NCBI RefSeq assembly: GCF_040409795.1
Contig: NZ_CP099571.1
Span: forward strand, 992,001 to 1,056,000
DNA: 64,000 bases
Reading direction: 5' to 3'
DNA from: Polynucleobacter sp. MWH-UH19D
GTDB taxonomy: Bacteria > Pseudomonadota > Gammaproteobacteria > Burkholderiales > Burkholderiaceae
Shown here: piece by piece, positions 13,429 to 56,401 of the stretch
How the letters are laid out: the number at the start of each line of letters is the position of its first letter
How positions within the stretch are numbered: the stretch's first letter is position 1
Notes under the pieces: model-generated
What the model was told of the DNA's origin: nothing
The model's database searches: none
What the model saw: the letters and a program-made list of their open reading frames with translations, nothing else
Program-made: the position numbers and the translations under genes

Positions 13429-14624
13429 TATTTGCCCTCCTTCTTGCTGGCAGCATTCATGAGCTCCACAAATCGATCAAATAAATAAGCAATATCGTGA
13501 GGACCTGGTGAGGCCTCAGGGTGACCCTGAAAACACAAGGCTGGCTTATCTTTCCATGCAAGACCTTGAAGCGAACCATCAAATAAAGAAACGTGAGTTA
13601 CCCGCACATTGCTTGGCAAGGTATTTGAGTCCACTGCGAAACCATGATTCTGAGAAGTAATCGCAACACGTCCAGTATCCAAATCCTTTACAGGATGGTT
13701 GGCACCATGGTGGCCAAATTTCATTTTCAAAGTTTTGGCTCCAGCAGCTAGCCCCATAATTTGATGACCCAAGCAGATGCCAAAGGTAGGGACACCCTTT
13801 TCAATAATGTCTTTAGCGGCAGCGATGGCGTAATCACATGGACCAGGATCTCCAGGTCCATTTGAGAAAAATACACCATCTGGGTTCATCGCCAATACTT
13901 CAGTTGCAGAAGTTTGAGCTGGAACTACAGTCAGCTCACATCCACGTTCTGTGAGCATGCGCAAAATATTGCGTTTAACACCAAAGTCGTATGCAACTAC
14001 CTTTTTAATTGGCTTGGAAGTATCTAATGATTTATATGCTGGCTTTCCATTTGCTCCACAGAGCTCCCACTCTGCTTCACGCCATTCATAGGGCTTCTTA
14101 GTTGTAACTACCTTAGCCAAATCAAGACCAGCCATCCCAGGAAATGCTTTCGCCAACTCTAGGGCTTTTGCGGTTAAAGATTCATAACTGTCACCCAGCT
14201 TGCCTGCTACAACTGCTCCCGATTGCGCGCCTTTATCACGCAGAATGCGAGTGAGTTTGCGAGTATCGATTCCAGCGATACCTACAACACCCGCATTTGC
14301 TAGATAACTATCTAAGCTGGCTTCAGAGCGAAAGTTGGATACCCGTTTTGGTAAGTCTTTGATTACCAAAGCAGCAGCATGAATTTGATCGGATTCCGCA
14401 TCTTGAGTATTTACACCCACATTGCCAATGTGCGGATAGGTCAAGGTAACGATCTGACGCGAATAACTGGGATCAGTAATGATTTCTTGATAGCCAGTTA
14501 ATGCGGTATTAAAAACAACTTCACCAGCTGTCTCGCCATGAGCACCAATACTAAAACCGGGAAAGATAGTGCCGTCAGCTAAAGCCAGCACGGCAGGAGG
14601 AAAAGAAGGAAGCAAGGGTGACAA
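13428..14624 (-). CDS. carA: Carbamoyl-phosphate synthase small subunit CarA
   Basis: Glutaminase subunit that delivers ammonia to CarB. It has 398 residues. The N-terminal CPSase domain ([20 protein letters not shown]) precedes a class I glutamine amidotransferase domain with the nucleophile in [12 protein letters not shown] and the His/Glu pair in [14 protein letters not shown]. The start is the TTG at 14624: GGAG lies five bases ahead, and no ATG is available before the conserved core. The 223-base gap upstream to prpE should hold the promoter. Minus-strand CCCC and GGGG blocks followed by TTTT at about 14655-14685 could form a weak leader hairpin, but I do not call an attenuator. Confidence 0.98.
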
Positions 14625-14807
14625 ACTATCTCCAGTCCCTGCTCCATCCGACGCTCAAAACCCCAAAAAGACCAACCCGGGGCTGTTTATGCGGGAGGTG
14701 AGTGTCTTTAAGCGCTAGGGTATTTAATTAGTTTCGAACCCTGTAATGATACCAGTTTTGCGTTCTAAGCCCTTGAATCCCCAGCCAATTAGGGTTGGCA
14801 AGCCGAT

Positions 14808-14832
14808 CTCCCTAGAACAAAGATCTAGGGAG
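14808..14832 (-). other. Perfect stem-loop in the prpE-carA gap
   Basis: CTCCCTAGA and TCTAGGGAG form 9-bp arms around a 7-base loop, 16 bases after the prpE stop. Neither side has the T-tract of a Rho-independent terminator in the right place: six Ts lie before, not after, the stem on the minus strand. It may protect the prpE 3' end or act with Rho. Confidence 0.5.
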
Positions 14833-48513: not shown

Positions 48514-48598
48514 TGGTGCCGACGGCGAGACTCGAACTCGCACAGCCTAAGCCACTACCCCCTCAAGATAGCGTGTCTACCAATTTCACCACGTCGGC
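48514..48598 (-). tRNA. tRNA-Leu (anticodon GAG)
   Basis: The minus strand shows an 85-base class II tRNA. The acceptor GCCGACG pairs with CGTCGGC, the anticodon stem CTATC/GGTAG encloses loop TTGAGGG (anticodon GAG), a long variable arm follows, and the T-arm is GCGAG-TTCGAGT-CTCGC. Discriminator A and an encoded CCA end it. It directly follows secG, as leuU (also GAG) follows secG in E. coli. Confidence 0.96.
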
Positions 48599-53690: not shown

Positions 53691-53714
53691 AAAAAGCCCT
53701 CATTAGAGGGCTTT
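53691..53714 (-). terminator. Rho-independent terminator after leuA
   Basis: AAAGCCCTC and GAGGGCTTT are perfect 9-bp arms around a 4-base loop, with TTTTT on the minus strand. It lies 49 bases after the leuA stop and separates leuA from rpsO. Confidence 0.85.
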
Positions 53715-53763: not shown

Positions 53764-55311
53764 TTAGGGCGTCATTTGAGCATTGAGCTTTGCCTGACTT
53801 GGGTCATGTAACTTATTCAAAGCGGATAAATAGGCCTTTGCAGAGGCTGCAATGATGTCAGGATCTGTGCCAACGCCATTTACGATCCGACCGCCCTTAG
53901 ATAGCCGGACGGTAACCTCGCCTTGCGATTGAGTACCCGAGGTGATTGCATTGACAGAGTACAGCAACTGCTCTGCCCCACTTTTTGCAACCCCTTCAAT
54001 AGCATTTAAGCTTGCATCCACCGGACCATTTCCCTCAGCCTCGGAGCTAACTTCCTTACCACCCATACGAAAAGTAACGCGAGACTTAGGACGCTCGCCT
54101 GTTTCGGAGTGTTGATTCAATGAGACAAAGTGATAAAACTCACCCTCTTCAGCGGCTGCAGCATCCGACATGATCGCGATGATATCTTCGTCGAAAATCT
54201 CCGCCTTTTGGTCCGCTAATGCCTTAAAACGTGTAAATGCCTCATTCAAATCTGCTTCAGCTTCAACAGTAATGCCCAATTCTTGCAAGCGCTGTTTAAA
54301 AGCATTGCGTCCTGACAATTTGCCTAAAACAATCTTATTGGTTGTCCAACCCACGTCTTCTGCGCGCATGATTTCATAGGTTTCACGATTTTTCAAAATA
54401 CCGTCCTGATGAATACCAGAGGCGTGCGCGAAAGCATTTGCACCTACAACTGCTTTGTTTGGCTGGACCACAAAACCGGTGATTTGAGAAACCAATTTCG
54501 ATGCTGGAACAATTTGACTGGCATCAATGCCGCAAACCATATCAAAGTAGTCTTTTCGAGTTCGCAATGACATCACGATCTCTTCCAATGCAGTATTGCC
54601 AGCACGCTCACCTAAGCCATTTATAGTGCACTCAATTTGTCGCGCCCCACCAATCTTCACACCGGCCAAGGAATTCGCTACGGCCATTCCTAAATCATTA
54701 TGGCAATGCACGGACCAAATCGCTTTATCCGAATTTGGTACACGAGTGCGCAAGGTTTTAATGAAGTCTCCATATAACTCCGGAGTAGCGTAACCAACTG
54801 TATCTGGAATATTGATTGTTGATGCACCTTCATTAATCACAGCCTCAACCACACGGCACAAGAAATCCATCTCAGAGCGGTAACCATCTTCCGCAGAGAA
54901 CTCAATATCAGAGGCCAAGTTTCTAGCAAAACGAATGGATCGTTTGGCTTGCTCCAAAACTTCTTCTGGAGACATGCGTAATTTAACCGCCATATGCAAT
55001 GGGCTGGTAGCCAAAAATGCATGAATACGTTTCGCATTTGCAGCCTGCAAAGCATCAGCAGCCCGGGTGATGTCCTTATCGTTCGCCCTAGCCAATGAAC
55101 ACACAATAGAATCCTTAACGGCAGCAGATACGGCGGAAATTGCTTGAAAATCCCCTTCAGAGCTTGCAGCAAATCCAGCCTCAATCACGTCCACCTTTAA
55201 TCGCTCGAGCTGACGGGCAATACGAACCTTCTCGTCTTTGGTCATCGACGCGCCAGGGGATTGCTCACCATCACGTAAGGTGGTGTCAAAAATGATTACT
55301 TTGTCGCTCAT
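53764..55311 (-). CDS. leuA: 2-isopropylmalate synthase
   Basis: First committed enzyme of leucine synthesis; condenses acetyl-CoA with 2-oxoisovalerate. It has 515 residues from the ATG at 55311, behind GGAGAG. The catalytic domain starts [18 protein letters not shown] and contains [19 protein letters not shown] with the metal-binding His pair and [18 protein letters not shown]. The C-terminal LeuA dimer domain (about 390-510), which binds leucine for feedback inhibition, is complete. It is preceded by a leader peptide and attenuator and is the last gene of the ilv-psd-pssA-leu cluster. Confidence 0.98.
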
Positions 55312-55361
55312 CACTACTCTCCGGTTTGCTAGCTTAATTTACTTAACTTTTAACTCTATTT

Positions 55362-55391
55362 AAAAACAAAAACCCCAGCAATTTGCTGGGG
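55362..55391 (-). terminator. Leucine attenuator terminator in the leuA leader
   Basis: On the minus strand CCCCAGC pairs with GCTGGGG (loop AAATT), followed by TTTTTGTTTTT. It lies between the leader peptide and leuA. Its 5' arm (GCCCCAGC, 55385-55392) can instead pair with GCTTGGGGC (55445-55453) inside the leader peptide sequence, with one bulged base. That alternative pairing would prevent terminator formation when the ribosome stalls at the Leu codons. Confidence 0.9.
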
Positions 55392-55431
55392 CTGGTATTG
55401 GTGGTTAATGAATGATCTCTATCTCATCAAC

Positions 55432-55506
55432 TCAGGCCTTACCCGCCCCAAGCATAAGGCTTAGTGCTAGCAGAAGAAGGCTGTTTAAATGTGATAAATG
55501 TTTCAT
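55432..55506 (-). CDS. leuL: leuA leader peptide (24 residues, Leu-rich)
   Basis: Translated by hand: MKHLSHLNSLLLLALSLMLG followed by AGKA and TGA. Nine of 24 residues are Leu, four consecutive at positions 10-13 and using rare as well as common codons (CTT CTT CTG CTA). It ends about 40 bases before the attenuator terminator. Family knowledge: leader peptides with runs of the regulated amino acid govern leu operons by ribosome stalling. No clear ribosome site precedes the ATG. A TATAGT box eight to nine bases upstream suggests a nearly leaderless transcript, or else translation within the pssA readthrough RNA. Confidence 0.85.
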   Translation of the reverse strand: MKHLSHLNSLLLLALSLMLGAGKA

Positions 55507-55537
55507 TATGGATTTACTATACCCCAAAAAAAGGGTT

Positions 55538-56401
55538 TTAGCTAAAACGTCTACCGCTTAGACGTTCCCACGCCCATATGACGTATCCAGAAGCTGAATA
55601 GATCACAAATAAACCAAATAAGGTCAATGGCGGATTGGAGGATATCAGCACAAAGGTTAGGATCAATAGAACCATCACCCCAAATGGCACTCGATACCGG
55701 ACATCCAAAGCTTTACCACTGTAAAAACGTGCGTTAGACACCATGGTTAGTCCGGCGTAGACCGCAATAAAGAACGTTATCCAAGGAATGGCTGAATCGC
55801 GCACTGGAATCTTATTGTCATCAGCCAGCCAAATAAAACCAGCAATCAATGAACCTGCGGCTGGACTAGGGAGCCCTTGAAAGAACTTTTTATCGACAAC
55901 ACCCGTATTGACATTAAAGCGCGCTAGGCGCAAAGCAGCGCCTGCACAATAGGTAAAAGCAGCCAACCAACCCCACTTACCCAAATCTTTTAGGGCCCAC
56001 TCGTAAGCCACTAAAGCTGGCGCAACTCCAAATGACACCATATCGGCAAGTGAGTCGTACTGCTCGCCAAAAGCGCTTTGGGTGTTAGTCATGCGCGCTA
56101 CACGACCATCCATTCCGTCCAATACAAGAGAGGCAAAAATTGCTATAGCCGCCACCTGAAATTGATCATTCATCGCATTAACGATGGCGAAAAATCCACT
56201 GAACAAAGCGGCGGTTGTAAAGGCATTTGGCAGTAAATAAATACCCTTGCTACGCAAACGTGGCTTCTCAAGTGCGAGCTCCTCGACTTCATAGTCCAGC
56301 TCATCACCCATTACTTCAGCCCATTGATCCTCGTTGGTGCTGATGCGACCTGGATTTATGCGACTTCGATGGATTCGACCGCGACGGCGAAATGTGCTCA
56401 A
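55538..56401 (-). CDS. pssA: CDP-diacylglycerol-serine O-phosphatidyltransferase
   Basis: Makes phosphatidylserine from CDP-diacylglycerol and serine in the inner membrane. It has 287 residues. The CDP-alcohol phosphotransferase signature reads DGRVARMTNTQSAFGEQYDS followed by LAD, matching DGx2ARx8Gx3Dx3D. About eight hydrophobic helices follow the charged N-terminal 60 residues. The start is the TTG at 56401, with GGA nine bases ahead. It follows psd (the next enzyme of the pathway) by 24 bases and ends 31 bases before the leuA leader peptide. Confidence 0.95.
   Translation of the reverse strand: MSTFRRRGRIHRSRINPGRISTNEDQWAEVMGDELDYEVEELALEKPRLRSKGIYLLPNAFTTAALFSGFFAIVNAMNDQFQVAAIAIFASLVLDGMDGRVARMTNTQSAFGEQYDSLADMVSFGVAPALVAYEWALKDLGKWGWLAAFTYCAGAALRLARFNVNTGVVDKKFFQGLPSPAAGSLIAGFIWLADDNKIPVRDSAIPWITFFIAVYAGLTMVSNARFYSGKALDVRYRVPFGVMVLLILTFVLISSNPPLTLFGLFVIYSASGYVIWAWERLSGRRFS

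Follow-up and report, generated by a model that had tools for sequence, protein, structure and literature searches.

The pssA-leuA gap and its promoter

The stretch of DNA analysed here (64,000 nucleotides, referred to below as the window) belongs to a genome of 1,950,979 bases in one contig. The leuA gene lies on the minus strand downstream of ilvB, ilvH, ilvC, psd and pssA (CDP-OH_P_transf), the identities of which were confirmed with Pfam, and has 92-96% identity to its closest genus-named relatives, which are Polynucleobacter. Its start codon is the ATG at 55311, with the GTG at 55314 as a possible alternative. The pssA stop codon occupies 55540-55538 (minus strand), just before a short leader frame (Table 1). 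The earlier note had described this frame as having 24 codons with nine Leu, four of them consecutive, and it is indeed found on the minus strand from the ATG at 55506 to the TGA at 55432. The perfect terminator hairpin with a T-tract, claimed to lie about 40 bases further on, follows 38 nt after the leader stop and reads AGCCCCAGCA-AAT-TGCTGGGGTT and then TTTGTTTTT (55393-55362, minus strand). Apart from the leader, no short ORF on either strand of the 64-kb window has four identical residues in a row and is followed within 130 nt by a perfect-stem terminator. A longer TTG-started form (LGYSKSI...) was rejected as coding because its additional codons correspond to the -10 box and the region around the start, translated in frame. 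The NCBIfam search with the leader peptides gave no match above the cut-off.

Table 1. Features of the leader region and of leuA, in window coordinates.
Feature	Position	Strand	Basis or remark
-35-like hexamer TAGCTA, weak	55539..55544	-	overlaps pssA stop codon
-10 box TATAGT	55516..55521	-	conservation in genus
Predicted transcription start	55509	-	-10 spacing; equals A of leader ATG in other species
Leader peptide ORF, MKHLSHLNSLLLLALSLMLGAGKA and stop	55432..55506	-	24 codons, 9 Leu; between pssA and leuA
Regulatory Leu codons 10-13 (CTT CTT CTG CTA)	55468..55479	-	leader translation
Protector hairpin P1, CUAAGC / GCUUGG	55448..55464	-	in codons 15-20; alternative to antiterminator
Antiterminator 5' strand GCUUGGGGCGGGUA	55440..55453	-	conserved pairing, modelled folds
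Post-stop hairpin P2, GUUGAUGA / UCAUUAAC	55404..55431	-	loop between antiterminator strands
Antiterminator 3' strand UACCAGCCCCAGC	55385..55397	-	overlaps terminator 5' arm
Intrinsic terminator stem, 10 pairs, 3-nt loop	55371..55393	-	perfect stem, conserved
U-tract	55362..55372	-	sequence
leuA Shine-Dalgarno GGAGAG	55317..55322	-	kept in most of genus
leuA, 2-isopropylmalate synthase	53764..55311	-	Pfam HMGL-like and LeuA_dimer
Terminator-like palindrome between leuA and rpsO	53693..53714	+	sequence scan

As judged from conserved elements, the putative attenuator has its own promoter, located at the end of pssA and missed by the earlier note. The -10 box is TATA(T/G)T in 85 of 86 genus sequences, and in 84 of the 86 it is positioned 6-7 nt before the leader ATG (6 nt in 73 sequences, 7 nt in 11, 8 nt in one and 9 nt in one). 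The 9-nt case is the genome of the window, in which the first ATG is now ATA and the next ATG, 3 nt on, is used. Based on this -10 spacing, transcription most likely starts at the A of the leader ATG, or 3 nt earlier in the species of the window, and the leader mRNA is probably leaderless. There is no Shine-Dalgarno sequence in front of the leader ORF. It should be mentioned that the promoter of the window, the -35 of which is a poor match, was not picked up by a generic promoter scan; it was revealed by conservation. In divergent congeners, CTGACA, ATGACA or GTGACA can be read directly 17 nt upstream of the -10 box, at the same spacing.

The palindrome between leuA and rpsO suggests that leuA is transcribed alone. 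Because the conserved promoter lies inside the pssA-leuA gap and this palindrome follows leuA, the claim that leuA is controlled separately from the upstream ilv-psd-pssA genes gains support. A search upstream of ilvB for a leaderless Leu frame did not find one.

Conservation and alternative RNA pairings

Among the 81 genus genomes in which leuA was located, the pssA-leuA gap is readable in 77. A Leu-rich upstream ORF is present in all 77 gaps, typically MLMNFSPLTGLLLLALSLKLGAGKA; in divergent clades most of the leader residues are changed and the Leu run is kept (for example, MNTNLSLLLLLELGQNLGSVHA). The genus pattern is also followed by eight additional genomes from a family search, and in one of them, G160, a G-C pair of the terminator is replaced by G-U. 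The leuA of G160 has eight in-frame stops, although its promoter and leader ORF persist together with a terminator that is nearly intact; its leucine pathway looks like it is decaying. Eight loci have a 12-nt in-frame insertion at the Leu run, by which LLLLAL becomes L(P/A)S(G/R)KLLLAL. Its occurrence in scattered species suggests that the regulatory codons were altered repeatedly or that the alteration was transferred. Among the leader Leu codons of the genus, 34% are CTA compared to 11% in the larger ORFs of the window, and TTA and TTG are depleted in the genus leaders. It is noted that the window encodes, at 48514-48598 (minus strand), a tRNA-Leu whose anticodon GAG reads CTC/CTT, as used at positions 10-11 of the leader.

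Covariation was evaluated on 54 non-redundant genus sequences, with P1, P2 and the terminator counted together. In these three structures, 93.8% of cells are paired compared to 23-56% in slid controls, and 11 pairs are changed on both sides, giving 26 such cells versus 6.9 in shuffles (0 of 500 shuffles reach this value). Changes on both sides are found for four of the six pairs of P1 and five of the eight pairs of P2, the latter hairpin being missing in one clade.

These observations bear on a reading in which the hairpin serves to terminate the ilvBHC-psd-pssA operon and the frame encodes a small secreted peptide or the remnant of a signal peptide. The terminator is indeed downstream of pssA, and the leader peptide resembles a signal sequence, starting with MK and having a hydrophobic run and small residues at its end. 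However, the promoter sits between pssA and the terminator, the hairpins covary within the coding region, and the Leu run persists though the rest of the peptide varies between families. Moreover, the PHGR/PNGR end of the Comamonadaceae peptides encodes ACGGGC, complementary to their own terminator arm. We regard an end-of-operon terminator with a secreted peptide as very unlikely.

The pairing of 55453-55445 (GCTTGGGGC) with the 5' arm of the terminator, as claimed earlier, is confirmed, and the full antiterminator is longer. Its strands are paired in 87% of cells compared to 20-43% when slid. For the antiterminator by itself, the fixed alignment shows three pairs changed on both sides, a number also reached by 37 of 500 shuffles and so not clearly in excess, and its covariation score is no higher than shuffled. 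The antiterminator core does not vary, and the little covariation obtained by column counts is partly due to one clade in which the GGGG is displaced by one column. A duplex permutation test independent of the alignment was therefore added, in which the cognate duplexes of ten clade representatives exceed permuted ones in strength (p = 0.018). In one clade, GGGGC:GCCCC and GGU:ACC are replaced by GGGGU:ACCCC and GUG:CAC.

Folds were modelled for 17 species. With a stalled ribosome and nascent RNA, the antiterminator is formed in 17 of 17, and with the ribosome at the stop codon the terminator is formed in all 17, as it is in the untranslated RNA. The full-length starved RNA shows a slight thermodynamic preference for the terminator in 14 of the 17 species, so the antiterminator would have to form first, before the 3' arm of the terminator is made. 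The earlier note had proposed to examine the gap for compensatory changes in relatives, and considered that non-conserved Leu codons or pairing partners would speak against its claim; this comparison does not refute the claim, as the terminator, the two competing pairings and the Leu run are kept genus-wide, with compensatory changes.

Proposed mechanism and comparison with known leaders

A ribosome-mediated attenuator is expected to combine a short ORF rich in codons for the product, an intrinsic terminator between this ORF and the gene, and mutually exclusive antiterminator and protector structures that can be selected by the ribosome. At this locus, nine of the 24 leader codons before leuA are Leu, the terminator has a conserved 10-pair stem and U-tract, and the alternative structures are present, with strong covariation for P1 and modest covariation for the antiterminator. 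By these sequence criteria, the pssA-leuA element is a ribosome-mediated attenuator. The leader-peptide attenuation design put forward in the earlier note is thus supported by the conserved Leu run, the alternative pairings and the terminator. We consider it very probable that leuA is controlled by a classical ribosome-mediated transcription attenuator, in which readthrough would rise when leucine is scarce and would depend on translation of the regulatory codons; the element is with high probability functional and its mechanism ordinary.

The analysis shows the elements and how far they are conserved, covariation in P1, P2 and the terminator, an antiterminator pairing that is maintained, and modelled folds; in the following scheme, the start site, leaderless initiation and the response to leucine are inferred. 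RNA polymerase would start at the promoter at the pssA end, with the RNA beginning at the leader AUG or, in the species of the window, 3 nt before it, and the ribosome would initiate on the leader without a Shine-Dalgarno sequence. With ample Leu-tRNA, the ribosome would reach the stop codon and cover GCUUGGGGCGGGUA, allowing the terminator to form and stop transcription. When leucine is scarce, the ribosome would stall on Leu codons 10-13 and cover the 5' arm of P1; the freed GCUUGGGGCGGGUA could then pair with UACCAGCCCCAGC, the terminator would not form and leuA would be transcribed. In the absence of translation, P1 would form and termination would be the default. The LeuA enzyme is probably made only when leucine is short.

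The leu attenuator of E. coli and Salmonella likewise relies on competing hairpins and CUA codons. The leuL-leuABCD arrangement of these bacteria is similar in having a short leader ORF of comparable size with a Leu run and a terminator before leuA. In contrast, the Polynucleobacter leader is probably leaderless, has its own promoter at the pssA end and would control leuA alone; it has more Leu codons and an extra post-stop hairpin, and it matches no Rfam leader family. The E. coli leu leader has 28 amino acids with four Leu (PMC6123439). In Streptomyces lividans, an organism of an unrelated phylum, leuL1 (leuA) and leuL2 (leuS) encode Leu leader peptides that are leaderless (PMC8079986); they resemble the Polynucleobacter leader in the leaderless transcription, predicted here, of a Leu-run ORF before a leucine gene, and differ in that leuL1 is without an intrinsic terminator. 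Leader mutations of Streptomyces coelicolor leuA were not in agreement with classical attenuation (PMC1262725). In the actinobacterial LEU element, a Leu-run ORF likewise precedes leuA, but the conserved pseudoknot of this element pairs the Leu codons with the leuA Shine-Dalgarno sequence and there is no terminator (PMC1262725); with a conserved terminator, and an antiterminator, the Polynucleobacter leader is not a member of this element.

The trpL leader of Sinorhizobium meliloti (PMC7298713) is another case of proteobacterial attenuation in which the RNA starts at the leader ATG, as predicted here; it senses Trp, whereas the Polynucleobacter leader carries Leu codons. Leaderlessness is therefore not new in kind, being already reported for Sinorhizobium trpL (PMC7298713) and Streptomyces leuL1/leuL2 (PMC8079986). 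In S. meliloti, the leader RNA rnTrpL and the peptide peTrpL are reported to act in trans (PMC7298713). A similar action of the leuA leader RNA or peptide on other mRNAs, in addition to attenuation and not as an alternative to it, is conceivable from the layout, which is that of rnTrpL: a leader RNA of about 150 nt, presumably leaderless and strongly terminated. The peptide tail LALSLKLGAGKA is also very conserved in the genus. However, this conservation is explained by the RNA pairings that the tail encodes, and where the pairings differ, the tail differs with them. We consider a trans function unlikely.

No leader family of Rfam 15 matches the pssA-leuA region at E values up to 10, and 18 related loci gave no Rfam match at the gathering score. 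We found no description of a beta-proteobacterial leuA attenuator in the open literature, though subscription papers could contain one. The leuA attenuator would thus represent a known mechanism in a lineage for which no earlier description was found in the open literature or Rfam 15. Elsewhere in the window, 14616-14814 (minus strand) strongly matches Rfam RF04192 (200.6 bits), the carA motif, which is a structured RNA originally discovered in Polynucleobacter (PMC8632094).

Leucine leaders in other Burkholderiales

To cover the order, we scanned for TATA(A/G/T)T followed after 6-7 nt by an ATG and a frame of 15-45 codons with at least three Leu. Matches are found upstream of leuA at 36 of 75 loci from other genera or families of the order, compared to none on the reverse strand, none further upstream and 0.01 expected from Markov sequences. 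With a looser -10 box, 43 of 67 titled-record loci outside Polynucleobacter have such a frame (none on the reverse strand, 0.2 expected). A terminator is present in 36 of these 43 loci, and in 28 at least 6 nt of the leader are complementary to the terminator 5' arm. The complementary segment is mostly ACGGGC, encoded by a conserved HGR/NGR peptide end. Loci L176-L236, mostly Comamonadaceae, have very short, putatively leaderless Leu leaders (for example, MKTNLLALLLTPHGRDV) followed by a GGCCCG-type terminator, and the HGR/NGR end of these leaders likely encodes the antiterminator strand. Three other genera, probably Cupriavidus/Ralstonia-like (attribution by sequence), have a CGCCCCGGC...GCCGGGGCG terminator upstream of leuA.

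Five loci that we attribute to Burkholderia-like bacteria, L102 among them, have a putatively leaderless CTA-rich leader of the LSLLAGAPLRALALARLPR type. In L102, CTA accounts for six of the eight leader Leu codons compared to none of 38 in leuA. The CTA contrast can be sharper in GC-rich relatives; other families use mainly CTG. No clear U-tract terminator was found in the Burkholderia-like genera keeping the leader, so another output is needed there. These relatives, which keep the putatively leaderless CTA-rich ORF and show no U-tract terminator, and the actinobacterial LEU element, also without a terminator (PMC1262725), are consistent with an ORF that acts on translation, by coupling or reinitiation to leuA, and not on transcription termination. 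Such an output is highly improbable for the Polynucleobacter leader, in which the terminator is the most conserved part in the genus and leuA has its own Shine-Dalgarno sequence >100 nt downstream of the leader stop.

We lean slightly toward a leaderless leucine attenuator being ancestral to leuA across Burkholderiales, with outputs that diversified into terminator and terminator-free versions. This ancestral reading, held as a whole with the same slight preference, would have unrelated terminator stems in Polynucleobacter, Ralstonia/Cupriavidus-like genera and Comamonadaceae, terminator-free (Rho-dependent or translational) versions in Burkholderia-like genera, the promoter-ATG fusion kept by all and the rare CUA codons kept by many. 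Since not every locus matches, universality is not claimed.

For a widespread freshwater genus, and by extension for a large part of Burkholderiales, the element represents a predicted leucine switch of leuA that is unannotated. With its nearly constant distance between promoter and ATG, it may provide a natural system for asking why attenuator leaders often dispense with a ribosome-binding site. It would also be a case of one leader that was re-wired to different terminators while its sensing part stayed unchanged.
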